Positions 74-24,204 of a DNA stretch of 64,000 nt are shown here, piece by piece; within the stretch, counting starts at the first letter, position 1, and each line of letters starts with the position of its first letter. The stretch is from Candidatus Marinamargulisbacteria bacterium SCGC AG-410-N11. Its GTDB lineage: Bacteria > Margulisbacteria > Marinamargulisbacteria > GCA-2716485 > AG-410-N11. Under the pieces are notes generated by a model. It did no database searches. It had not been told where the DNA came from and worked only from the letters and a program-made list of their open reading frames with translations. The stretch is from NCBI GenBank assembly GCA_003265895.1, contig QFBS01000002.1, forward strand, positions 1 to 64,000, in the 5' to 3' direction. The position numbers and the translations under genes were made by a program.

Positions 74-1246
74 TTAGGACTCTCTCATAATATATTTATC
101 GGTTACTAATTTACGAGAAAAATCATGTATTTTTGGTAAGGACAAATCATTTATTTTTCTTTCATCAAGTTTAAGTGAATTTAAAAATTTAACAAAATTA
201 AAAGATGGGTCCAAATTAGGCACATGACCTGTTTTAATTTTAGATACGTTGAGTCCTATAGATTTTGCGAAGTCATAGTGATGATCAGTAACTACAGTAT
301 CTGTTTCCCCAAAAAAAAGAAACGTATTTTTATTCTTTAAGATGTTAATCTCATCACTTGAAAAATTTAATTGGTTTCTTTGGTTAATGATATTAATAAT
401 ACAGTCTAAAGGGTGGCGATTAGTATCAACACTATAAGCTAATTGAGTGGAATTAGTAAGATGATCCGGCACATTTCCTCGGCCTGCATTATATTCAAGT
501 ATATTTTGGAATTTGTTCTTTGGGAAAACACAACGTTTTAAAATAAAATTAATACATTTATATGTTAAAATAATATCCATGAAAGAAGCCGTATAGCCAA
601 CACCAACTGGTGAAAACGCTAAAACTTTACTAATATTTAATTTTAATCGAGGTACTAACTTGATAGCATAAAAACAAGAAATTGAATGAGCAACAATTTC
701 AAATGGCTTTGAACCTGTAATCGCAGCTAAGCATATTTCTAAGTTATCAATAGTAGAAGATATAGAGGCTTCGTTAGAAGAGGAAGATCCTCCTGAATTA
801 AGCAAATCAAGAGCTATAATATTATAATGATCTAAAAGATTGTCTATATTAGAGTAATATTGAGAAAGGGAAGAGAGATTTAATCCTGCTAATAAAATCA
901 TTAATGGTTTAGTTTGTAATGAGTTTCTTGTAAAACTTAAATAGTGAAAAATAGATTTATCAAAAATACAGAAGTTAGTAGAATAAGTAACATTATTGAT
1001 TTTATTACATAGGTCTTCTTCGAATAAGTAATAACCCTTAAAATTATTGATATGATCTTGGAAAAAAGTAGGAATCCAAGGTTTTTCTGAAAATGAATTT
1101 TTAATCTTAAAAGAAAAATCTAAATTTTTATGAAATTTATTTTCTAAATTAAAGTCTTTTAGTTTGCAGAGCGGTTCATTTGGGTAAGCGGATGATTTAA
1201 ACTGTGAATTATTTTGTAACCTAAGTGAAATAGTTTTGAAGTTCAT
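74..1246 (-). CDS. alpha/beta hydrolase-fold protein
   Basis: A 390-residue protein. The C-terminal two thirds show alpha/beta hydrolase landmarks in order: an oxyanion-type strand end (LLAGLN), a nucleophile elbow VAHSIS with the candidate serine in place of GxSxG, an acid region FFGETD and a C-terminal TGHVPN with the candidate catalytic histidine. The first ~110 residues match no domain I know. It is the last gene of a leftward operon: its ATG overlaps the stop of the ThiF-like gene by 4 nt, so the two are probably translationally coupled. It could act as a thioesterase, esterase or acyltransferase releasing or transferring whatever the upstream adenylating enzymes activate. That role is inferred from context only; the substrate is unknown. 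Confidence 0.7.
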   Translation of the reverse strand: MNFKTISLRLQNNSQFKSSAYPNEPLCKLKDFNLENKFHKNLDFSFKIKNSFSEKPWIPTFFQDHINNFKGYYLFEEDLCNKINNVTYSTNFCIFDKSIFHYLSFTRNSLQTKPLMILLAGLNLSSLSQYYSNIDNLLDHYNIIALDLLNSGGSSSSNEASISSTIDNLEICLAAITGSKPFEIVAHSISCFYAIKLVPRLKLNISKVLAFSPVGVGYTASFMDIILTYKCINFILKRCVFPKNKFQNILEYNAGRGNVPDHLTNSTQLAYSVDTNRHPLDCIINIINQRNQLNFSSDEINILKNKNTFLFFGETDTVVTDHHYDFAKSIGLNVSKIKTGHVPNLDPSFNFVKFLNSLKLDERKINDLSLPKIHDFSRKLVTDKYIMRES

Positions 1247-2322
1247 AATGAAGATAATAATGCTTGTAAATCAAAAACAATCCTACCACTTTTAGTGAAT
1301 TTATGTAAAGCTATTTCACGAATAATAAATGCTGTAATTGAAGTAGCTGTACTAACTGAGCTAGAAACTTGAGGACGTCCGATAAGTGTTTTATTGATAG
1401 CCTTTAATGAATCTAAAACAATCGGACTAATATTTTTTTTATCAACAAATTTTAGAACAATTTCATTGATCTGAGAAATATTTGAAAGATCTGACTCTAA
1501 AATGATACGAATATCATCATCTGTTAAAAGCCCATGTAATATCGGTAAGTTTGGATTTAAATCAAATCGTTCAATATCAAAAATTAAGCGATCTCCAACT
1601 GAAGTAGCCATTAAAAGAGGGATTTTATGTTGTTTTGCATATTTTCTTAATTCTATCTTTATAGTAAAGTCATCTATTTCATCAATAATTAGATTAGATC
1701 CCAGTATAAACTGCTTTAAATTTGATGTTGATAACTTTTGAAAGGAATTAACGTTGCAATAAGGATTAATTTCAAATAGTTTTCTAGCAGTAAAGTCAGT
1801 TTTTTGAAGATTAATTTCATGAACTCCAGAAAAAATACGATTTAAGTTAGATGTAGAAATAATATCAAAGTCAGAAATGTTAATACTTTTACTAATACCA
1901 TTAGACATTAATGAGAAGGCTAAATTACTACCAACGGAAAGTCCAGCAATAGAAACTGTGAAGTTTTCTAAAGTAGACTGTTCTTTTTTTGAAATAATTT
2001 GTTGATTCCGATTAGTTAATAGTTGAAAGTATTTATGTTGATCAACACAATGTATAAAGTGGCCGTTCCAAGGGAAGTAAATCCAGTTTCCTTTAAGATA
2101 ACTGTAAGCATTATTCTGTATTAAAAAATTATCTAAAGATGAGTTGTATTTAGATTTATCAGTTATTTGTGGATTATAAATCTGAAATAGTTCAACTAAT
2201 TGACTTTTATAAATATCAATTTTATTTAAAATTTTATTTTCTTTTTCAAAATTCTTTAAATCAACATTGTTATATTGATTTTCTTTTAAAATAACTGGAA
2301 CAGACTTTATTTTAGAACCCAT
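1243..2322 (-). CDS. ThiF/E1-like adenylating protein (Rv1355c-type N-terminal region)
   Basis: A 359-residue protein with an E1/ThiF/MoeB Rossmann fold. The nucleotide loop is VSIAGLSVGSN, followed by the acidic ISDFD and the conserved SNLNR segment seen in ThiF proteins. Further on are NPYCNV, a LIIDEIDD strand and the ATSVGDR/DIERFDL/LHGLL stretch. The lead-in GNWIYFPWNGHFIHCV and the DRLIFDIERFDL region resemble the ThiF part of mycobacterial Rv1355c-type proteins, where ThiF is joined to a nitroreductase domain. Here the nitroreductase-like gene is separate, at 6000-7031. No zinc-binding CxxC pairs are visible. It overlaps the upstream adenylate-forming gene by 16 nt and the downstream hydrolase by 4 nt. 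The family adenylates a carboxyl terminus; the target here is unknown. Confidence 0.8.
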   Translation of the reverse strand: MGSKIKSVPVILKENQYNNVDLKNFEKENKILNKIDIYKSQLVELFQIYNPQITDKSKYNSSLDNFLIQNNAYSYLKGNWIYFPWNGHFIHCVDQHKYFQLLTNRNQQIISKKEQSTLENFTVSIAGLSVGSNLAFSLMSNGISKSINISDFDIISTSNLNRIFSGVHEINLQKTDFTARKLFEINPYCNVNSFQKLSTSNLKQFILGSNLIIDEIDDFTIKIELRKYAKQHKIPLLMATSVGDRLIFDIERFDLNPNLPILHGLLTDDDIRIILESDLSNISQINEIVLKFVDKKNISPIVLDSLKAINKTLIGRPQVSSSVSTATSITAFIIREIALHKFTKSGRIVFDLQALLSSL

Positions 2323-3872
2323 TTCTCTTTATGCATGAAATCTTCAAACGGTGATTCTCTGTACTTAATAACTTTTATATTAGGAATTACAGACTTTCCT
2401 TTTGATTTATAAAGTTCCAAATATTCGCTACTTTTTTCTTTTAATGTTTGAAATATAGAGTTACTTAAAAGATTTACTTCTGTGTCTGTAATCGAGCCAT
2501 TCTTGGAAAGTTCAATAAAAATATTTAAGTATTCATTAAAACGATCATCTTGTGTTTTTGCTAATTTAAATCGTCCAGTTATATTATGCTTTTTCATTGC
2601 TAAATTTAATAAGTTCCGAATATAAACTGGATAAATATTTATTCCATAATAAGACAATACTTTATTTGTAGGGTCACCAACATAAACAAATGGAAGTTGT
2701 AACACTGATTTGAAATCAACTTTTTCTCGTAATAGCTCAATAATATCAATATTGAATTTTTTAAGTAACAAAATCATTTCATTAAATTTTATTATGCCTC
2801 CAATATCTCCAATCTTATAACGAATCAAAGGAAATGAGGATCCGTATCCAGAAAGTAAGAGTTCACCATTAATTTCTTCAAAGTGAATTAGTTTAGGATT
2901 ATATTGTACTAATGAGGGCAAAATTTTAGTATTAGGAAATAATGCTTGTCTAATAGTAGGGTTTTTATGACAAATTTCTCTAATAAGAATCGAAAGTGGG
3001 GTCTCAAATCCCATCGTACCAAATTCAACACTGCCATAAATATTAACAAAACTATCATATTTATTTTTGATATTTAAATTAGTTTGCAAAAATGACCGAT
3101 ATTCTTCAGAGTAGTTTTCTGCCGCAGTTAAAACTTTAATATTTAAATTATTAAAATTTAAGCCAGCTGTATTTATTTCTGCTATCATATCTTTAATATG
3201 AGGAGGATATCCAATTAAGATAATTTGATCATATTGATCTTGTAAACGAGAAATTGTTGTGACGATTGTTTGTAAATTAAGCCCAGTAGGAACAACAGTT
3301 AATGGATACTTATTACTACTTGCTATATTATACAGAGCTTTAAACGTAATCATTCCACCAATCCATATGCCTAAGCCAAAACCTAAAATAGCAAGAGTTT
3401 TTTTCTTATGAACTTGAAATTGAGATGTTAAATAAATTTCTGTAGCAAACATATTTTGAATATCATGAATTTCTTCCCTTGGAAAAAAAACAGGAGATCC
3501 TGTAGTCCCAGATGTAGAAGAGAAGGTAATAATTTCATTTAATCTAGAAGCAGGAACTAAGTCATTGATTTGATTTTCAGAGACATAGGATTTAGGTATT
3601 GGAGGCAGTAACTTAAATTCATCTAAACTAGTTATCTTGGATAAATTGAAATTTTTTTCAGATAAAAAACTTTTATATGCTTTAACATTATTGATACAGT
3701 AGTTTGTGAGCTTGAAAAGGTTTTGATTTGCTAATATTTCATGATAAGATTCAGGTAATTGGTGAAGTTCTGATAAAGCTTTATTAAAATGAACAGGATA
3801 TTGAAAATAAGTATAGGTTTCTTTATTTATTATTTTTTTTGTTGAAGAAACATCAAATTGTTTTAATTGCAT
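2307..3872 (-). CDS. LuxE/phenylacetate-CoA ligase-like adenylate-forming enzyme
   Basis: About 521 residues. The ANL-superfamily P-loop TFSSTSGTTGSP lies near residue 125, followed by ILGFGLGIWIGG, LIGYPPHI, NIYGSVEFGTMG (A5-like region) and IRYKIGDIGG (the A7 YxxGD-like motif). The closest families are LuxE acyl-protein synthetase and PaaK-type CoA ligases, which activate a carboxylate as an acyl-adenylate. I chose the ATG at 3872 over a TTG at 3884; both are in frame and the Shine-Dalgarno match is weak for each. It is the first gene of a three-gene leftward operon with the ThiF-like protein and hydrolase. Substrate and acceptor cannot be read from sequence. Confidence 0.78.
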   Translation of the reverse strand: MQLKQFDVSSTKKIINKETYTYFQYPVHFNKALSELHQLPESYHEILANQNLFKLTNYCINNVKAYKSFLSEKNFNLSKITSLDEFKLLPPIPKSYVSENQINDLVPASRLNEIITFSSTSGTTGSPVFFPREEIHDIQNMFATEIYLTSQFQVHKKKTLAILGFGLGIWIGGMITFKALYNIASSNKYPLTVVPTGLNLQTIVTTISRLQDQYDQIILIGYPPHIKDMIAEINTAGLNFNNLNIKVLTAAENYSEEYRSFLQTNLNIKNKYDSFVNIYGSVEFGTMGFETPLSILIREICHKNPTIRQALFPNTKILPSLVQYNPKLIHFEEINGELLLSGYGSSFPLIRYKIGDIGGIIKFNEMILLLKKFNIDIIELLREKVDFKSVLQLPFVYVGDPTNKVLSYYGINIYPVYIRNLLNLAMKKHNITGRFKLAKTQDDRFNEYLNIFIELSKNGSITDTEVNLLSNSIFQTLKEKSSEYLELYKSKGKSVIPNIKVIKYRESPFEDFMHKEKWVLK

Positions 3873-4010
3873 ATTAGTTTCCAAATCTATTTAATTTTTA
3901 TATTGAATATATTACAAAATATGCTATATAATTTAATTAACATGAATTATTTAAACATTCAATATTTCTCATGTCAAGTAATTTGTAGGTTTTTACAAGT
4001 ATAATATTGT
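3873..4010. promoter_or_regulatory. divergent promoter region of the cluster
   Basis: This is the only gap inside the 74-7031 cluster and must drive both transcription units. On the forward strand a perfect TATAAT sits at 4000-4005, only 5 nt before the ATG at 4011, so initiation at the usual distance would give an essentially leaderless phosphatase mRNA. On the reverse strand several TATA-rich candidates exist and none is decisive. Confidence 0.5.
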
Positions 4011-5372
4011 ATGGAAACAAATCTTTTATTTTTACTTGTAGGTCTGTTTACGTTTAACACCATCTTTTCAATTATTTTATGGTATTTTGAAAAATCTCGA
4101 CTATTTAAATTATTAACGTTTTCTTGGGCTGTTTCACTGATTCCATTTGTTGCCCAAGGGTTATTTAATTCAAATCATTTAGAGATTTCTTTGTCTTATT
4201 CTTCGTTAATTATTCCTATGATGTTTTTTGCATATTTAATGGCTGATATTACAGAAGTCAAATTTAAAATAAAACCATTTATTATTTTATATTGTGGGTC
4301 TGTTATATTATCAATATGGTTTAATATTTTAAATTTTCCTTTTTGGGCTATTTCTGTGCCTGTATGTATAACAATCTCATTACCATGTTTATGGGTAACT
4401 GGTTCAATAATTAGTAAGAGAAAAAAATTAATCTCTCCACTAGAGTTAATGCTTTGTTTTACTTGTATTATTTTATTTTTTCATAATATGGATTTTCCTT
4501 TTATTAGGCTTATTGATGAACTAGCCCCTTTTGGGTTTACAGTAGCTATTTTAATTGTATTTTCTCAATCAATTTTATTACCTACTTTAATTTTAGAGAA
4601 AACATCTAAAGAAAAGGCACGGATAGAAACTACAATTCAGACTGGGCATAATATTCAGAGTGAAATTATACCTGATAAAATTCAAGTTCCAGGTTTAGAT
4701 ATAGCATCTTTTATGAAGCCTTCAGATGAGATAGGTGGAGACTATTATGACTCAATGGAAATAGATGGGCGTTATTGGGTGTTTATTGGCGATGTAACCG
4801 GACATGGGATAGGTAGTGGTTTAGTCATGTTTATGATTCAAAGTATTATTTCAACAATTTTAAAAACACATAAATATATATCACCTGGAAAGTTAAATTT
4901 TATTGCAAACCAAATTTTATATGATAATTTAAAAAGGCTAAAGGAGAAAACTCCAATGACAATAGTTTCAATGTGTTTTGAAGGCCAATACAAAGCCACT
5001 TTTAGTGGTTGTCATGATAATATATTTATTTATAGAGCGGATGAAAAATGTGTAGAAATAATTCACCCTACTCATTTTATGGTAGGACTGGGTTTTACAA
5101 ATCAATATGAAGGTGAAACCTATGAGGAAGAGAAAGTCGAATTTAAAAAAGATGATATCCTATTTTTAGGAACTGATGGGGTAAGCGAAGCGCCTGAACA
5201 GGGGAGTTATAATAAGGGGTTTTTTGGAGAAGATAGGATTATACAGTTTCTAAAAAATAATAGTGAATTATCTGCAAATAAATTAAAACAAAAATTAATT
5301 AGTGAATTAGATAAGTTTACAGATAAAAATTACTATGATGATATAACATTTATTTTTGCAAAGGTTTCGTGA
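4011..5372 (+). CDS. membrane-anchored SpoIIE/RsbU-type PP2C phosphatase
   Basis: A 453-residue protein. Residues 1-190 hold about six hydrophobic helices with no large loop, so the sensor is probably membrane-embedded. A short linker leads to a PPM/SpoIIE serine phosphatase domain (about 205-453) with metal-binding motifs GGDYYD and FIGDVTGHG, and later FLGTDGVSEAPEQG and YYDDITFIF. This family dephosphorylates STAS anti-anti-sigma proteins in partner-switching pathways. The next gene, overlapping by 4 nt, encodes a GHKL ATPase, the usual opposing kinase. No STAS gene is present in the window. Position between the adenylating operon and the nitroreductase suggests it controls the cluster or responds to its product; this is inference. 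Confidence 0.88.
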   Translation: METNLLFLLVGLFTFNTIFSIILWYFEKSRLFKLLTFSWAVSLIPFVAQGLFNSNHLEISLSYSSLIIPMMFFAYLMADITEVKFKIKPFIILYCGSVILSIWFNILNFPFWAISVPVCITISLPCLWVTGSIISKRKKLISPLELMLCFTCIILFFHNMDFPFIRLIDELAPFGFTVAILIVFSQSILLPTLILEKTSKEKARIETTIQTGHNIQSEIIPDKIQVPGLDIASFMKPSDEIGGDYYDSMEIDGRYWVFIGDVTGHGIGSGLVMFMIQSIISTILKTHKYISPGKLNFIANQILYDNLKRLKEKTPMTIVSMCFEGQYKATFSGCHDNIFIYRADEKCVEIIHPTHFMVGLGFTNQYEGETYEEEKVEFKKDDILFLGTDGVSEAPEQGSYNKGFFGEDRIIQFLKNNSELSANKLKQKLISELDKFTDKNYYDDITFIFAKVS

Positions 5373-5965
5373 AAATGAGAAGTGTAAAGGAAAATTATAA
5401 AAAAATTAATAGTTTCTTTGAATTTAAATTTCAAAAGAGAAACTTTTTATTAAATGAGTTCTCTACTCACAATATTAATGAAGTTGCAAAGGGAAGTGTT
5501 CACATTATTGTTGAAGATAGAGATTGTGACGATTTATGGGAAGTAAATGAGTCAATTTTTAAAATTATAGAATGTGCTAGCAAGGAAAAAAGACCCGTTT
5601 TGTTTAAAACATTTTCAAATATATTTTGCGAGTTGGCAGATAATGCTATTAAATTTAACAATAATAAAAAAGGCTATGCAAAATTAAGTATAAAATTATA
5701 TTCAAAATATATTTTATTTGAAATGAAAAATGAAGTTAATAATGAGATGCAAACTAATTTAGAACGTTTTATTTGTAATTATAAACAGAATGATTTAAAT
5801 AAGAACTTTTTAGATACTATTCAAAGTAACTATGAAAATAGGAAAGAGGCTTCTGGAATAGGTTTAATTAGTTTAAAACTAAATTATAATTTATTATTTA
5901 GAATTGAGTTAATTAAAAATAAGGATAAAGTATTTATAAGTGTAGAAGCAAAATATAATTTATAA
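5369..5965 (+). CDS. GHKL ATPase-domain protein, possible anti-sigma kinase
   Basis: A 198-residue protein. The second half has a GHKL ATPase layout: an N-box FCELADNAIKFN with the Mg-coordinating asparagine, a beta segment KYILFEMKNEV and a G-box-like ASGIGLISLK. The first ~80 residues are not recognised and no histidine phosphoacceptor helix is visible, so it is more like an RsbW/SpoIIAB serine kinase than a sensor histidine kinase. It overlaps the SpoIIE-type phosphatase gene by 4 nt, which fits a phosphatase/kinase switch acting on a STAS protein encoded elsewhere. The target is unknown. Confidence 0.65.
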   Translation: MKMRSVKENYKKINSFFEFKFQKRNFLLNEFSTHNINEVAKGSVHIIVEDRDCDDLWEVNESIFKIIECASKEKRPVLFKTFSNIFCELADNAIKFNNNKKGYAKLSIKLYSKYILFEMKNEVNNEMQTNLERFICNYKQNDLNKNFLDTIQSNYENRKEASGIGLISLKLNYNLLFRIELIKNKDKVFISVEAKYNL

Positions 5966-5999
5966 TTTTAAGTAATCATTAAAAAAGGGGATTTTATTT

Positions 6000-7031
6000 T
6001 TGAAAACTTTAGATAATGCAACCAAAATAAGATTAATTAATATATCTGATTTTAAACAAAAACAAACAATAAAAGAAAAAATAGAATTTTTATTAAATTT
6101 TGCAATTTTAGCGCCTTCAACTCATAACTCTCAGCCATGGAGTTTTATTATAAAAGATAATACTCTTAAAATAGTTTACGATAATAGTATTAATATAAAG
6201 ATTGCAGATCCAGATAATAGATATAAGGTTATGAGTTTAGGCTGTTGTTTTGTTAACGTAATTATTGCGGCTGCCTATTATAATTTTTTAGAATCTTATT
6301 CTTATAATGAGCAAAATGACAAAATTGAATTAGTTATTGTTTTTGGAAAAGTAACTAATATTCCAGCATTTTATTCTAATGAATTATTTTTTCAAATTCT
6401 TAAGCGAAAAAATAGTAGAGGTGTTTTTAAAAGTGAAAAGTTTAATAGATTTCAATTAAATAATATTAAGAGTGTAAACATATTCAAAAATATAAAGATT
6501 GATATTATTGATGATAATAAAAAAATTAATAGTATTGCAAGTTTAACTAAAAAAGTATTAAAAGAATTATATTCTGAAAAAGAATTTCGTTTAGAGTGGG
6601 CAAAGTGGATTAAAACGCCATTTTCAAAAAATATGAAAGGGATCTCTTCTTTAGAGTTAAAGCCTTCCGTCGTATTATCTCCAATTATTCCAATTGTAAT
6701 GCGATATTTTAATGTGTCGAAAAAGGCCTCAAACTTAGTTGGAACGATGATCAAGTCATCGGCAATAGCTATTGTATTAAGTAGCAACGATCTCAATAAA
6801 TTAAGTTTTATTGAGGGTGGAATGTTAGCTGAACTATTAATGCTAAAAATTCAGTCTATGGGGTTTCAAACGTCTATAGCCGTAGCTGCCTTATCAAATC
6901 CAGAGTCAAAGGCCAAGTTAATGAACGAGTTAGGTATTAATGAGGAACCTATATTTATTTTCTTTGCTGGTAAAATGGAAGAGTCAAAATATTTGTCAAC
7001 TAGAGTAGAGTATAATCATATTCTAAATTAA
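6000..7031 (+). CDS. Acg/Rv3131-like nitroreductase-family flavoprotein
   Basis: A 343-residue protein with TTG start, preceded by a good ribosome site (AAAGGGGA). The N-terminal FAILAPSTHNSQPWSF is the FMN-binding signature of nitroreductase-like Acg proteins, and the C-terminal ML..KIQSMGFQTSIAVAALSNPESK matches the second flavin-fold half. The length fits the duplicated Acg type rather than the ~200-residue classical nitroreductases. Many members of this family have lost ordinary nitroreductase activity, so the reaction is uncertain. It follows the phosphatase/ATPase pair by 34 nt. In Rv1355c-type proteins a ThiF domain is joined to a nitroreductase domain, which supports a functional link with the ThiF-like gene at 1243-2322. 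Its stop codon overlaps that of the convergent parB by 4 nt. Confidence 0.8.
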   Translation: MKTLDNATKIRLINISDFKQKQTIKEKIEFLLNFAILAPSTHNSQPWSFIIKDNTLKIVYDNSINIKIADPDNRYKVMSLGCCFVNVIIAAAYYNFLESYSYNEQNDKIELVIVFGKVTNIPAFYSNELFFQILKRKNSRGVFKSEKFNRFQLNNIKSVNIFKNIKIDIIDDNKKINSIASLTKKVLKELYSEKEFRLEWAKWIKTPFSKNMKGISSLELKPSVVLSPIIPIVMRYFNVSKKASNLVGTMIKSSAIAIVLSSNDLNKLSFIEGGMLAELLMLKIQSMGFQTSIAVAALSNPESKAKLMNELGINEEPIFIFFAGKMEESKYLSTRVEYNHILN

Positions 7032-7846
7032 ATATTTAGCAATTTTTCGGCTTCTTGAATAAATTCTCTAGCATATCGTATTTTATCTGCAATGTTTTTT
7101 TTAGAGTCTTTTTTTAAGCCTTGTTTTTTAATTTTTAATTGTTCTAATATAAGCTGTTCTTTTCGATTTTTAATTAAAGTTTGTTTAGGAGGTTTAACAG
7201 TTTTTTTATCACGATTTGCAAGGTATTTTAAAATTTCATTTTTTGTGGATCTATGAAGTAAGTGGTATGCTTTTTCAGATTCTGTCATTTTACTAATTCT
7301 ACTATATTGTTTAATACTATCTATATTTCTTCCAACAGATTTAGCAATTTCTTTTAATGTTAAATTTGAATGGTTCTTTAAGTCTGATAATGCATCTGCT
7401 AATTCAACAGGATTTATATCTGTTCTATGCATATTTTCGGCTAATTGAAGTAATTTAATATCCGTAGGGTTATCAGTGTAATTTTTTACAATACAAGGTA
7501 TTGTTTTACGCTTAAGATGTTTAAAGGCTTGATACCTATTTTCACCAATTAAAAGAAAGTAAGTAGAGTTACTATCAGGTTTTTTCATAATAATGATTGG
7601 ATGAATAAGACCTTTGGTAGCAATATCTTCAGAAAGTGCAACTATTTTAGTGTAATCAAGAGATTTTCTAACTTGTGTTCGGATCTCAATATCAGTTAAT
7701 TTTATATCTAAGATAATTTTATCACCAAAGTTATTAATCCGACTATTAATAATATCTTGAGTAGATTTTACATAAGTTTGTTTTTGAAACAAGCTATGAT
7801 TAGATAATGAAAAGTTACTAGATATTTTATTTGTTTCTTTATCCAT
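7028..7846 (-). CDS. parB: ParB-family partition protein (copy 1)
   Basis: A 272-residue ParB/KorB-type protein: N-terminal CTPase domain with GLIHPIIIM, the LLIGENRYQAF box (variant of GERRxRA) and the QLAENMHRTDINPVELADAL box. A helix-turn-helix follows ([25 protein letters not shown]), then a lysine-rich C-terminal part likely to dimerise. It overlaps the upstream parA by 1 nt. It is clearly paralogous to the ParB at 23398-24204. No canonical parS palindrome was found by eye. The asparagine in the GERR box is unusual compared with chromosomal Spo0J proteins. Confidence 0.88.
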   Translation of the reverse strand: MDKETNKISSNFSLSNHSLFQKQTYVKSTQDIINSRINNFGDKIILDIKLTDIEIRTQVRKSLDYTKIVALSEDIATKGLIHPIIIMKKPDSNSTYFLLIGENRYQAFKHLKRKTIPCIVKNYTDNPTDIKLLQLAENMHRTDINPVELADALSDLKNHSNLTLKEIAKSVGRNIDSIKQYSRISKMTESEKAYHLLHRSTKNEILKYLANRDKKTVKPPKQTLIKNRKEQLILEQLKIKKQGLKKDSKKNIADKIRYAREFIQEAEKLLNI

Positions 7847-8661
7847 TAATTTAATCTGTTTATTAATGAATGGGAAAGGTTTAAATAATCTTGAGCAGCT
7901 GTACAGTTTATATCATAATCAATGATACTTTGATCCATTGCATTAGCATGATCAATTCCTACATTATTCCGAATATATTCTTGAAATAATAGAGATCCAT
8001 AATATTCGTTACAAAGAGAAAAGCTCTCTTGAAACATACTTTCTCTATTATTAACTTGGGTAAAAAAGAACCCTAATAACGTACTATCAATATCAAAGAC
8101 AGATTGCAAGTTATTAACAGTTTCTAATAGAAGCTCAAGACCTGTTAAAGAAAATACATCCGCTTTTAAAGGCACAATAAGATTATCTGCAGCAACAATT
8201 GAATTTATTGTTAATAGACCTAATGACGGTTGACAATCAATAATAATATACTCATATTTTGAAAGTGTATCTTCATTATCTTTAAAAATTCTTTTTAAAA
8301 CAGTTTCTCTACCATGAATATTTACCAAGTCTAAATCGGCAGAGCTAAGAAGTACATTAGAAGGACAGATATCTAAGTTTTCTATATAAGTTGATTGTGT
8401 AAGTTTAGTAATGTTAACATCTGACTTAGCAGACTTAGTATTAGAGTAGTTCATTAATAAATTATATATAGAAATATCATTATCGGTTGTTGTCGAAAAA
8501 ATTTGAGTAGCATTTGCTTGAGGGTCCATATCTACTAAAAGAACTCTTTTTGTAGAGTTTTGATTTTGTAATGTTTTAGCAATTGACGCAGAAATATTGA
8601 TAGCTGAAGTTGTTTTCCCAACCCCACCTTTTTGATTAACTAGTGCAATAATAGAAGGCAT
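7846..8661 (-). CDS. parA: ParA/Soj-type partition ATPase (copy 1)
   Basis: A 271-residue ParA with deviant Walker [17 protein letters not shown] including the signature lysine, DMDPQANATQ (A') and YIIIDCQPSLGLLTINS (Walker B). The family binds DNA non-specifically and moves ParB-parS complexes. A clear Shine-Dalgarno (CGGAG, 8 nt spacer) precedes the ATG. It shares a bicistron with parB. It lacks an N-terminal DNA-binding extension, as chromosomal Soj does. A second ParA lies at 22566-23453. One pair may serve the chromosome and the other an integrated element. Confidence 0.92.
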   Translation of the reverse strand: MPSIIALVNQKGGVGKTTSAINISASIAKTLQNQNSTKRVLLVDMDPQANATQIFSTTTDNDISIYNLLMNYSNTKSAKSDVNITKLTQSTYIENLDICPSNVLLSSADLDLVNIHGRETVLKRIFKDNEDTLSKYEYIIIDCQPSLGLLTINSIVAADNLIVPLKADVFSLTGLELLLETVNNLQSVFDIDSTLLGFFFTQVNNRESMFQESFSLCNEYYGSLLFQEYIRNNVGIDHANAMDQSIIDYDINCTAAQDYLNLSHSLINRLN

Positions 8662-8752: not shown

Positions 8753-9745
8753 TTATAGTATATCAACAATAACAATTGTTTGATCGTCTTTTCGATCTAC
8801 ATTTTTAGAAAAAGATTCTATAGAAGAAAAGATAGTACTCAATAAATCTTTATTAGATAAATGCATGTTTTTAGAAATTAGGTCTTTGAAATTTGATAGT
8901 CCAAAAATATCATTCTTTTCATTTTTTTGTTCAATAATGCCATCTGTAAAAAAGACTAGACGATCTCCCTTATTTAAACGATGCCTTTTTTCTTCAAATT
9001 GTTCATTTGGGTAAATACCTAGAAAGGTTCCTTCCGCATTTAATTCAGTAATAGATTCATTGCTACTCATAAGTAATATGGGTAAGTGGCCGGCATTAGA
9101 ATAACTAAGCTCTTTAGTTGTTGTATTAATAACCGCATAACATGTGGTTACATGTGTTATTTGTGAATGACTAATAAATCTTTGTACATCATTATTCAAT
9201 CTATGTAGGGTTTTAGCGGGTGATGTATTATTCATACCAATTCGTCCAATTAGACCTGATGTGAGTGCCATGACTAAGGCTGAAGATACGCCATGACCTG
9301 CAACATCTCCAATAGAAATACCAATATATTGATCATTTGAATCTTTATATTCAAAAACACCAGGTGTTATAGAGTTTTCTTTTAAGGTAGTATCGGTTTT
9401 ATCAATAAATGTAAAAAAATCACCACTTAAAGATTTAGCCGATTTCCATCCTTTAACAATCGATAGGTTAGTTGACTCTGGAACGTCGATATCTAATAAA
9501 GCTTTTTGAACATTATGAGCTACGGTTAGCTCTTTATATGTTTCATTATTTTGAAGCTTTTGAGTGAATTTAGATTCTTTATTTCTAAAATAGTGATATA
9601 TAAAAAAGATTGAGATAAATAAAGTAAAAGTATTTAAAAATGTTGAAAAGTAAATAGATGAGTTAACCAAAAAAGGGATATTTGCCGTAAGTAATAACAA
9701 CAGTAGTAAAAAAATAAATAACCTTTTTTGTGAAATATTTACCAT
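8753..9745 (-). CDS. SpoIIE/RsbU-type PP2C phosphatase with two membrane helices
   Basis: A 330-residue protein with two hydrophobic helices in the first ~55 residues, a short polar linker (KNETYKELTVAHNVQKALL-like signalling helix) and a PPM/SpoIIE domain: SLSGDFFTF, ISIGDVAGHGVSSALV, SNAGHLPILL, VFFTDGIIEQKNEKNDIFG and RKDDQTIVIVDI. All acidic metal ligands expected of the family appear present. It differs from the phosphatase at 4011-5372 in its much shorter membrane part. No kinase or STAS gene adjoins it. A TATAAT box on the same strand lies 9 nt before the ATG. Confidence 0.88.
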   Translation of the reverse strand: MVNISQKRLFIFLLLLLLLTANIPFLVNSSIYFSTFLNTFTLFISIFFIYHYFRNKESKFTQKLQNNETYKELTVAHNVQKALLDIDVPESTNLSIVKGWKSAKSLSGDFFTFIDKTDTTLKENSITPGVFEYKDSNDQYIGISIGDVAGHGVSSALVMALTSGLIGRIGMNNTSPAKTLHRLNNDVQRFISHSQITHVTTCYAVINTTTKELSYSNAGHLPILLMSSNESITELNAEGTFLGIYPNEQFEEKRHRLNKGDRLVFFTDGIIEQKNEKNDIFGLSNFKDLISKNMHLSNKDLLSTIFSSIESFSKNVDRKDDQTIVIVDIL

Positions 9746-22565: not shown

Positions 22566-23453
22566 ATGAAAAATAAACCTATTATTATCGCGATTATTAA
22601 CCAAAAGGGTGGTGTTGGTAAGACAACGTCCGCTTTGAATTTAGCTGCTTTTTTTGCACTTTCAAAATTAAAAACGTTATTAGTAGATTTAGATCCTCAA
22701 GGGAACTCATCGGATACGTTATTGCCTGATTTAGAGAATTTTGAAAACGTGAAAACTAGTTATGATTTAATAATGAGTCAGACTTGTGATGAATATGCAG
22801 AAAAACTTAGATTAAATAATTTTTCAATTTTAGACGTAATTTCGTCAATTAAGATTGGCGATTATGAGTTAGACTTAATTCCTGCAGATATAACATTAAG
22901 TAATTCGGAATTGAGGTTGCACCATGAGGTTAATAGAGAATTTGTGTTAGATAAGGCGTTAAAGCAAGATCAACAATTATTATCTAAGTATGAATTTGTT
23001 TTAATAGATTGTCCTCCTTCATTAGGGTTATTAAGTTTGAACGCATTTATAGCATCAGACTATCTTTTAGTTCCCGTTGATGCTAGCGCTTATTCTCACC
23101 AAGGCCTTGAAGAATTGGTAAATAGTTTAGGTTATTGTAATGAAGTATTTCATAGTCAAACAGAGTTGATTGGAATATTTTTTGCTAAATTTGTGAATAA
23201 TGAGAATGTTTACAAACAAAGTCTAAAATATTTACAAAAAGAGTTAGGCGATCGTTTGTTTGAGACTGTTATTAATAAAAGTACATTGATAGAGCAGGCC
23301 CCTCATTGTCATCAAACAATAGTGACCTATGCTCCAAATACTAAACCATATTTAGATTATCTGAATTTGACTAAAGAGTTGTTAGAAAGGATAAGGAATG
23401 CCCAAGAAATTCGAAATAAACAAGAAGAAGCCGGCCCTGTTTTCACTAGATAG
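22566..23453 (+). CDS. parA: ParA/Soj-type partition ATPase (copy 2)
   Basis: A 295-residue ParA. It has [21 protein letters not shown] (deviant Walker A), [13 protein letters not shown] and [17 protein letters not shown] (Walker B). A good AAGAGGT ribosome site precedes the ATG. It overlaps the downstream parB by 56 nt, an unusually long overlap. Its sequence is closer to chromosomal Soj proteins than copy 1 is in the Walker B region, but phylogeny would be needed to say which pair is native. Confidence 0.93.
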
Positions 23454-24204
23454 GAAATTGAATCGAGCTGAAGATTTTAACGCGTTTAAAGTAGATCAGT
23501 TCGGCTCGGATGTTCAAATAGATATCTTGTTATCAGATGTAGTGATAAGAAAGCAGGTTAGACGAGAAATTGATAATGAGTCTGTTGATCGGTTAGCAAA
23601 TAGTATAAAAGATCAAGGGCTGATATACCCTATTATCGTAATGAAGATTCCAGATAGTAGCGATAAGTATACATTGTTAATAGGAGAGCATAGATATCAT
23701 GCCGTAAAAAAATTAGGAAGAAAAAAGATTACAGCGAGAATAATTCCATTTATAAAAGCTAAGTCAGATAGAGAGTTGATGCAGCTAGCTGAAAATCTCG
23801 AAAGGCGGAACCTAAATACAATCGAAATTGCAGATACTATAATGTCGATAAGAGTAAGTGCAGGTATGACATTAGAGCAGGTTGCAAGCAAGGTAGGGCG
23901 GAGTCTGAATACAATTAAACAATATAGTAGAATAAGTAAGTTAACGGAAGAAGAAAAGAGTTCGTTAGTAAATCAAGGCGCTTCATTTGATAGGATAATT
24001 CAGTATTTGAAATCTAAAAATAAAAAAAGTGTAGTAACTACACCTATTTTAAATAAGATATATAAGATATCAAATACTAAATACAGTCTTTCAAGGTTAA
24101 GTTTTGATTTAAAGAAGCACTCTAAGAAAGAGATTGAGGATAAGCTAGAACAGGCAGAATCGTTCATAAAAAAGGCAAGAGAGCATTTAGGGGTAGGGAT
24201 TTAA
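23398..24204 (+). CDS. parB: ParB-family partition protein (copy 2)
   Basis: A 268-residue ParB-like protein paralogous to copy 1. It contains GLIYPIIVM, the variant CTP box [31 protein letters not shown] and the helix-turn-helix [25 protein letters not shown]. The [12 protein letters not shown] stretch is nearly identical in both copies. The start at 23398 lies inside the 3' end of parA. The C terminus ([21 protein letters not shown]) is a likely coiled coil also shared with copy 1. The stop shares the tetranucleotide TTAA with that of the convergent hemerythrin-like gene. Confidence 0.9.

Follow-up and report, generated by a model that had tools for sequence, protein, structure and literature searches.

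A six-gene cluster from Candidatus Marinamargulisbacteria bacterium SCGC AG-410-N11, at positions 74 to 7,031 of contig QFBS01000002.1, unites candidate enzymes for an oxazolone with a candidate membrane receptor. The window analysed here (the whole stretch of DNA) is the first 64 kb of that contig and derives from a 1.5-Mb, 56%-complete genome. We propose, at evenly balanced confidence, that the locus is a small-molecule signalling circuit in which an amino-acid-derived signal of the oxazolone type is paired with a seven-transmembrane (7TM) receptor. The active-site motifs are intact, the genes are recurrently linked and in places fused in other bacteria, two of the enzymes are orthologous to TrzS, and the phosphatase beside them has 7TM topology. 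The enzyme set is nested in the diversity of Patescibacteria, and it stands beside a SpoIIE switch whose orthologues accompany TrzS in relatives.

The scheme that we infer extends to the substrate, amide formation by the ligase, the product, ligand binding and the biological role. A PaaK-type ligase would activate a carboxylic acid and, alone or with an alpha/beta hydrolase, attach it to an amino acid at the amino group. A ThiF-like enzyme would then adenylate the carboxyl of the N-acyl amino acid and close an oxazolone (azlactone) ring, which a flavin enzyme would desaturate. Recognition of the product would fall to the seven-helix domain of the SpoIIE phosphatase; together with a GHKL kinase, this phosphatase would set the phosphorylation of a regulator, a STAS protein in relatives.

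The original prediction for this locus, made from sequence without database searches, is partly supported. Its two carboxylate activators, flavin step and phosphatase/ATPase switch are a fair description, and its guess at a signalling or small-molecule system fits the evidence, as does its link to Rv1355c; a LuxE identity for the ligase and acid transfer onto a carrier fell away. It missed the receptor-like 7TM domain of the phosphatase and the 7TM sensors that stand beside synthases in other phyla.

A split relative of TrzS

The Rv1355c family model NF005901 matches the ThiF-like protein (1243 to 2322, minus strand; ThiF 1e-20) along its whole length (273 bits, model positions 13-341, 5.1e-81) and also matches the nitroreductase (6000 to 7031, plus strand; 70 bits, model positions 368-646, 1.6e-19). 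Because both proteins match, the window holds a split relative of TrzS, the ThiF/E1-type cyclase representing the N-terminal half and an Acg-type flavin mononucleotide (FMN) oxidoreductase (NF047509 4.9e-36; Nitroreductase/TM1586 down to 2.7e-8) the C-terminal half. The curated equivalog cut-off, 476 bits for one full-length protein, is missed by these two separate proteins, and by sequence similarity the pair is best described as a split, diverged Rv1355c relative and not as a member by the curated rule.

In an alignment of the window and Patescibacteria cyclases, G127, S129, G131, R162, K174 and D217 are invariant. The ATP-binding residues, which the original prediction had singled out as a check on itself, are intact (G127-S129-G131, D151/D153, R162, K174, D217). 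D217 is equivalent to the Asp that is essential in TrzS, and the adenylation Asp occupies the same position in the three known systems with which the window shares a ThiF-type cyclase and a nitroreductase-superfamily flavin oxidase, namely TrzAS (Rv1356c-Rv1355c, tryptazolone), TyzACB (tyrazolone) and OxzAB. The TrzS and TyzBC reactions have been demonstrated biochemically (PMC12856293, PMC10404671); in TrzS, D217A abolished cyclisation and R540A impaired desaturation, and the ThiF step was shown experimentally to be an intramolecular cyclisation of an N-acyl amino acid (PMC12856293). By comparison with TrzS, the window protein is best read as a predicted ATP-dependent cyclase that would convert an N-acyl amino acid to an oxazolone, a reading that replaces the earlier suggestion of acid transfer onto a carrier.

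The nitroreductase, by the same token a predicted desaturase, retains the FMN-site motif APSTHNSQPW and the KRKNSR arginines conserved with TrzS-type C-termini, and matches the Acg structure (PDB 2ymv) at 4.4e-7 by profile. It neighbours the ThiF gene by way of the divergent operon, whereas the known systems do not divide cyclase and oxidase between separate genes in divergent operons. In most Patescibacteria relatives the oxidase adjoins the ThiF gene or is fused to it. Homology, active-site conservation and linkage all lend good support to oxazolone-type chemistry, and we regard it as likely for the ThiF/flavin pair.

An E1-like conjugation or a peptide modification, in which a peptide or protein is the substrate of the ligase and ThiF and the flavin enzyme modifies the product, appears very improbable. 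ThiF belongs to the E1 superfamily, and the closest solved relatives of the window protein by profile are TcdA and ThiF, with UBA5 and E1 enzymes also among them. However, the ThiF set (window and Patescibacteria cyclases) has neither the zinc-binding CxxC motif nor a conserved cysteine, the cluster has no small ubiquitin-like or precursor-peptide gene, and over its full length the protein resembles Rv1355c/TrzS, an enzyme that acts on a free N-acyl amino acid. TcdA likewise closes a ring on an N-acylated threonine.

A PaaK-type ligase and a hydrolase

The AMP-forming acid ligase (2307 to 3884, minus strand; PaaK NCBIfam 4.5e-14) had been called LuxE-like. That label is rejected: the LuxE model PF04443 matches none of 15 homologues, the relatives are PaaK phenylacetate-CoA ligases, and the fold is PaaK-like. 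Acyl transfer through a LuxE-type cysteine is unsupported, since the ligase is PaaK-like and no column of the 15 aligned ligases holds more than five cysteines; the conserved acyl-accepting cysteine of LuxE acyl-protein synthetase is missing. The ligase profile matches the PaaK structure 2y4o at 2.5e-16, and an AlphaFold model (predicted local distance difference test, pLDDT, 80.6) resembles 4r1m and 2y27 (PaaK1), each at about 1e-20, and more distantly ClxA (1e-14 to 1e-15). The adenylation motifs are intact (TSGTTG at 124, NIYGS at 281, GDIGG at 359). Judged by these motifs and the modelled fold, both held in common with PaaK and ClxA, the protein is a PaaK-type ligase of the ANL superfamily, in a subfamily of its own at roughly 15-18% identity to solved members.

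The ligase occupies the place where known oxazolone clusters have an N-acyltransferase. In contrast to TrzAS, TyzACB and OxzAB, the window cluster has no GNAT N-acyltransferase (TyzA/TrzA/OxzA, FeeM-like) and instead has the PaaK-type ligase and an alpha/beta hydrolase; no N-acyltransferase was found beside the synthase genes within the window, where the contig ends at base 1. Within the phylum, relatives keep the N-acyltransferase that the window cluster lacks. The ANL superfamily includes acid-amido synthetases, which join an acid to an amino acid, and by analogy the ligase could couple an acid to an amino acid in replacement of the N-acyltransferase. That it provides the acyl group is, in our judgement, rather probable.

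The hydrolase (74 to 1246, minus strand; Pfam Abhydrolase_1 2.9e-7) has an intact Ser-Asp-His triad (HSIS at 187, GETD at 313, GHVP at 340), conserved in alignment with its Patescibacteria neighbours. In Patescibacteria it is found fused to ThiF (L036) and to the nitroreductase (L171).

Recurrence of the enzyme set in Patescibacteria

A cyclase-profile scan of genome contigs returned 80 loci, 15 of which bring ligase, cyclase and flavin enzyme together. The titled ones among these 15 are Patescibacteria (Magasanikbacteria, Woykebacteria, Woesebacteria, Kaiserbacteria, Parcubacteria, Saccharibacteria) and the rest are bacterial metagenome-assembled genomes. To avoid the bias of a cyclase query, a second scan set the ligase profile against 380 Patescibacteria genomes; the ligase is present in 54, and 52 ligase loci were read. 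The cyclase is found at 40 of the 52, the flavin enzyme at 31, an ELFV dehydrogenase at 15 and the hydrolase at four. Besides the two hydrolase fusions, we observed ligase-ThiF (L035), ThiF-nitroreductase (L164) and dehydrogenase-ligase (L175) fusions, so that every enzyme type of the set is involved in fusion. The grouping is not due to chance, because dozens of Patescibacteria loci repeat the enzyme set and SpoIIE/GHKL genes stand beside oxazolone synthases in three relatives; the neighbourhood check proposed with the original prediction thus did not refute it.

The genes that alternate beside the Patescibacteria ligase suggest what is activated. A dehydrogenase resembling the Trp dehydrogenase ScyB (15 loci), an aromatic ammonia-lyase akin to FlxA or HutH (eight) or an aminotransferase (four) adjoins it, and never two of these at one locus. 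Each would convert an amino acid to an acid open to activation by the ligase, and the activated acid in relatives is probably derived from an aromatic amino acid. The closest NCBIfam models are ScyB (scytonemin Trp dehydrogenase) and FlxA (flexirubin Tyr ammonia-lyase), although the Patescibacteria enzymes fall below the curated cut-offs, lie in another cluster context and were not found in the partly assembled window genome. No aromatic lyase was found in that incomplete genome, and its ELFV dehydrogenase matches, in frames of 1610 and 473 aa, are on contigs other than that of the cluster; for none of the three enzymes, the aminotransferase included, did the genome yield a gene beside the ligase or a clear candidate farther off. 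A methyltransferase gene occurs in the ligase cluster of six Patescibacteria loci (L183, L184, L192, L195, L196, L206), suggesting a methylated variant of the product.

These alternating aromatic amino-acid enzymes could also be taken to mean that an aromatic acid leaves the ligase as a CoA thioester or free adenylate, which is the signal or a building block, and that ThiF and the flavin enzyme make a heterocycle other than an oxazolone. The PaaK-family fold includes ClxA, solved with the adenylate of 3-amino-4-hydroxybenzoate, and nine of the 52 loci have the ligase and a 7TM kinase without ThiF, nitroreductase or dehydrogenase matches. We consider this improbable, given the presence of ThiF at 40 of the 52 loci, the ThiF-ligase fusion, and the TrzS orthology of ThiF and nitroreductase, which points to oxazolones.

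Membrane sensors beside the synthases

The window synthase is linked to a 7TM phosphatase and a GHKL ATPase, in which it differs from TrzAS, TyzACB and OxzAB. The phosphatase (4011 to 5372, plus strand; PP2C type, SpoIIE 6.3e-32) has seven hydrophobic segments and seven transmembrane helices within residues 1-211; its first 212 residues were modelled as a seven-helix bundle (pLDDT 92), and its catalytic motifs are intact (GGDY at 242, GDVTGHG at 260, TDG at 388, DD at 443). It is predicted to be a putative membrane receptor with a phosphatase output. The partner (5369 to 5965, plus strand; slr1658 superfamily, NF047703 9.9e-16) retains its GHKL motifs (N-box ELADN at 88, GIGL at 163), its relatives match PF19788 (DUF6272) weakly, and it is a predicted switch kinase. 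Akin to SiaABCD and to SpoIIE/GHKL/STAS partner switches, the window has a SiaA-type PP2C phosphatase (NF038263 3.7e-13) with a GHKL partner, to which relatives add STAS; unlike SiaABCD, it has a 7TM input domain and no SiaC/SiaD, and a STAS partner was not found in the window.

Within a set of 74 genomes of the phylum, the 7TM family of the window SpoIIE has convincing matches in seven. In three of these (G011, G012, G023) the 7TM-SpoIIE orthologue adjoins a fused TrzS, a FeeM-like N-acyltransferase and a GHKL gene. The N-acyltransferase is assigned by position and GNAT similarity, a sequence-profile search having returned no match to a FeeM-type structure. GHKL homologues come after SpoIIE in L033/L034, and in L032 and L101 they are part of the same cluster; in the two relatives read for it (L032 and L033), a STAS gene comes after GHKL. 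Elsewhere, a gene for an FkbO/Hyg5-type chorismatase lies directly upstream of the 7TM-SpoIIE phosphatase (G001, L123:228-2735), and a 7TM domain is joined to a histidine kinase in one protein, encoded close to a CqsA-like alpha-oxoamine synthase (G016, L124); a further 7TM-SpoIIE gene is located at a contig end (G003). Every readable 7TM case therefore has a small-molecule synthase nearby.

The G016 locus merits separate description. At L124:12643-16412 only 3 bp separate the CqsA/AONS-like alpha-oxoamine synthase gene from a HisKA_7TM-SpoIIE phosphatase gene that comes after it, and three 7TM histidine kinases are found near the synthase. It is likely to be another synthase-receptor set in the phylum of the window.

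In Patescibacteria the sensor is of another kind. A histidine kinase with an N-terminal HisKA_7TM-type domain is encoded at 47 of the 52 ligase loci, and representative kinases match PF16927. All 18 ligase-bearing genomes scanned contain HisKA_7TM, mostly in one copy, which adjoins the ligase in 17; two of eight scanned genomes without the ligase have it. The chance of such adjacency is below 1e-30 by a crude estimate that ignores shared ancestry. No HisKA_7TM kinase was found in the window genome. Homology between the SpoIIE 7TM domain and HisKA_7TM was rejected at a profile-comparison probability of 0.3%, so that they have only topology in common, and rhodopsin/GPCR kinship was likewise rejected, no PDB fold match falling below E 0.19.

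A third kind accompanies the cyclase in Bacteroidota. Among 36 cyclase loci, a GNAT N-acyltransferase is present at 34. A histidine kinase that combines 7TMR-DISMED2 and 7TMR-DISM_7TM domains is likewise encoded at 34, and in most cases genes for a response-regulator kinase and a response regulator come next; both exceptional loci are at contig ends. In the Bacteroidota loci (L051-L114) a lone response regulator of about 155 aa is often encoded divergently from the cyclase, besides the downstream kinase and regulators. Across lineages, linkage of synthase to membrane sensor is seen at 47/52 Patescibacteria and 34/36 Bacteroidota loci, and in the window and its three 7TM-SpoIIE relatives.

This repeated pairing, seen in three lineages and with three kinds of seven-helix sensor, supports a signalling role, and we lean slightly towards the view that the 7TM protein senses the product or a derivative of it. 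Pairs of autoinducer synthase and membrane sensor kinase are known (CqsA/CqsS, LqsA/LqsS, PhcB/PhcS). As in these pairs, the synthase gene of the window adjoins a multi-helix membrane sensor with a phosphotransfer or phosphatase output; the synthase chemistry differs, and the sensor is a 7TM-PP2C phosphatase with a putative ligand. The main rival is a bioactive metabolite under an unrelated sensor: the oxazolone or N-acyl dehydroamino acid would be an antibiotic, membrane lipid or redox agent, and the 7TM proteins would sense an unrelated cue and switch biosynthesis on. Biosynthetic clusters often bring their own regulators. Relatives of the N-acyl tyrosine type are antimicrobial, oxazolones are stress-inducible in proteobacteria (PMC12856293), and ring opening by the hydrolase could yield a dehydroamino acid, of the sort seen in stieleriacine-type products (PMC12479983). 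Yet the regulators, which vary by lineage, are always 7TM membrane sensors, the linked kinase in most scanned Patescibacteria is the sole HisKA_7TM kinase of the genome, and the conserved neighbours include neither a recurring transporter gene nor a recurring resistance gene. We therefore hold this rival to be unlikely, if still the foremost.

Several observations weigh against the proposed signalling circuit. Neither an amino-acid dehydrogenase nor a lyase was found beside the window ligase, though here the contig stops at the hydrolase gene. The product of the ligase may vary, because 12 of the 52 ligase loci, some of them truncated, have no ThiF. No STAS or response regulator was seen beside the window SpoIIE and GHKL genes, and none like that of the relatives was found elsewhere in the 56%-complete window genome. 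The actinobacterial loci examined showed no sensors linked to the synthase. A common ligand cannot be argued from sequence, since the 7TM domains are not detectably homologous and have no significant PDB fold match. The window enzymes form long branches in the trees described below. Finally, members of the ligase-type clusters are known from their genes alone, without a known product, ligand or phenotype.

Origin of the cluster

The tree of the cyclases places the window protein with seven Patescibacteria sequences (Shimodaira-Hasegawa-like approximate likelihood ratio test, SH-aLRT, 97), most of which have the hydrolase nearby or fused, and the TrzS fusions of the window's own phylum group with Bacteroidota. 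The ligase tree places the window in a four-row set with Patescibacteria (SH-aLRT 100), and in the flavin-enzyme tree it falls in a 26-row set where the nearest rows are Patescibacteria. None of the phylum's other 73 genomes has the ligase. The SpoIIE domain of the window groups with the SpoIIE of the TrzS-bearing relatives, and the TrzS cluster of G023 is, like the window cluster, also near purB and a second SpoIIE gene. The simplest account of these sequence relationships is that a Patescibacteria-type synthase was acquired and then coupled to a resident 7TM-SpoIIE/GHKL switch, which serves a TrzS-type synthase in relatives. The exact donor is unsure because the branches are long. A phage or virus origin was considered and rejected, no related viral contig having been found.

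Local genomic context

All six open reading frames (ORFs) were found intact and at the expected place, order and strands by ORF list and domain searches, confirming the arrangement in two divergent, overlapping units described originally. Neighbouring genes overlap by 4, 16 and 4 nt, and the cluster therefore forms two compact divergent units, 126 bp apart (3885 to 4010). Promoter-like matches in this 126-bp region are no commoner than in shuffled sequence. The window starts at contig base 1 and the contig ends 73 bp past the hydrolase gene; because of this the minus-strand operon may extend beyond the hydrolase. A second SpoIIE-type phosphatase is encoded at 8753-9745, between parA and purB, and its homologue is near purB in G023 too (L032:6635-7660). 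Two separate parA/parB pairs (7028-8661 and 22566-24204) occur within the window.

Conclusions

The role of acyl-oxazolones is a major unresolved question according to the discoverers of the Mycobacterium pathways (PMC12856293). The published neighbourhood analysis appears to colour no neighbours other than oxidases and acyltransferases, a survey of quorum-sensing genes in the candidate phyla radiation leaves oxazolone, ThiF and nitroreductase unmentioned, and we found no paper in the open-licence literature tying these sensors to oxazolones. With the synthase linked to a 7TM sensor at nearly all Bacteroidota and most Patescibacteria loci examined, the role of the oxazolones becomes directly testable, by asking whether the product binds to the adjacent sensor and switches it.

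More broadly, and more tentatively than for the locus itself, oxazolone-type molecules may be widespread bacterial cell-cell or self signals, their synthases being paired with HisKA_7TM kinases in Patescibacteria, 7TMR-DISM kinases in Bacteroidota and 7TM-SpoIIE in the window's phylum, and many Patescibacteria may carry one dedicated synthase-receptor set, in which the signal is made from amino acids with a PaaK-type ligase instead of an acyltransferase dependent on acyl-CoA or acyl carrier protein. The synthase type apparently moves between lineages and becomes wired to a resident phosphatase switch. If true, the pairing of synthase and receptor would provide a defined chemical signalling system for the episymbiotic, reduced-genome Patescibacteria.

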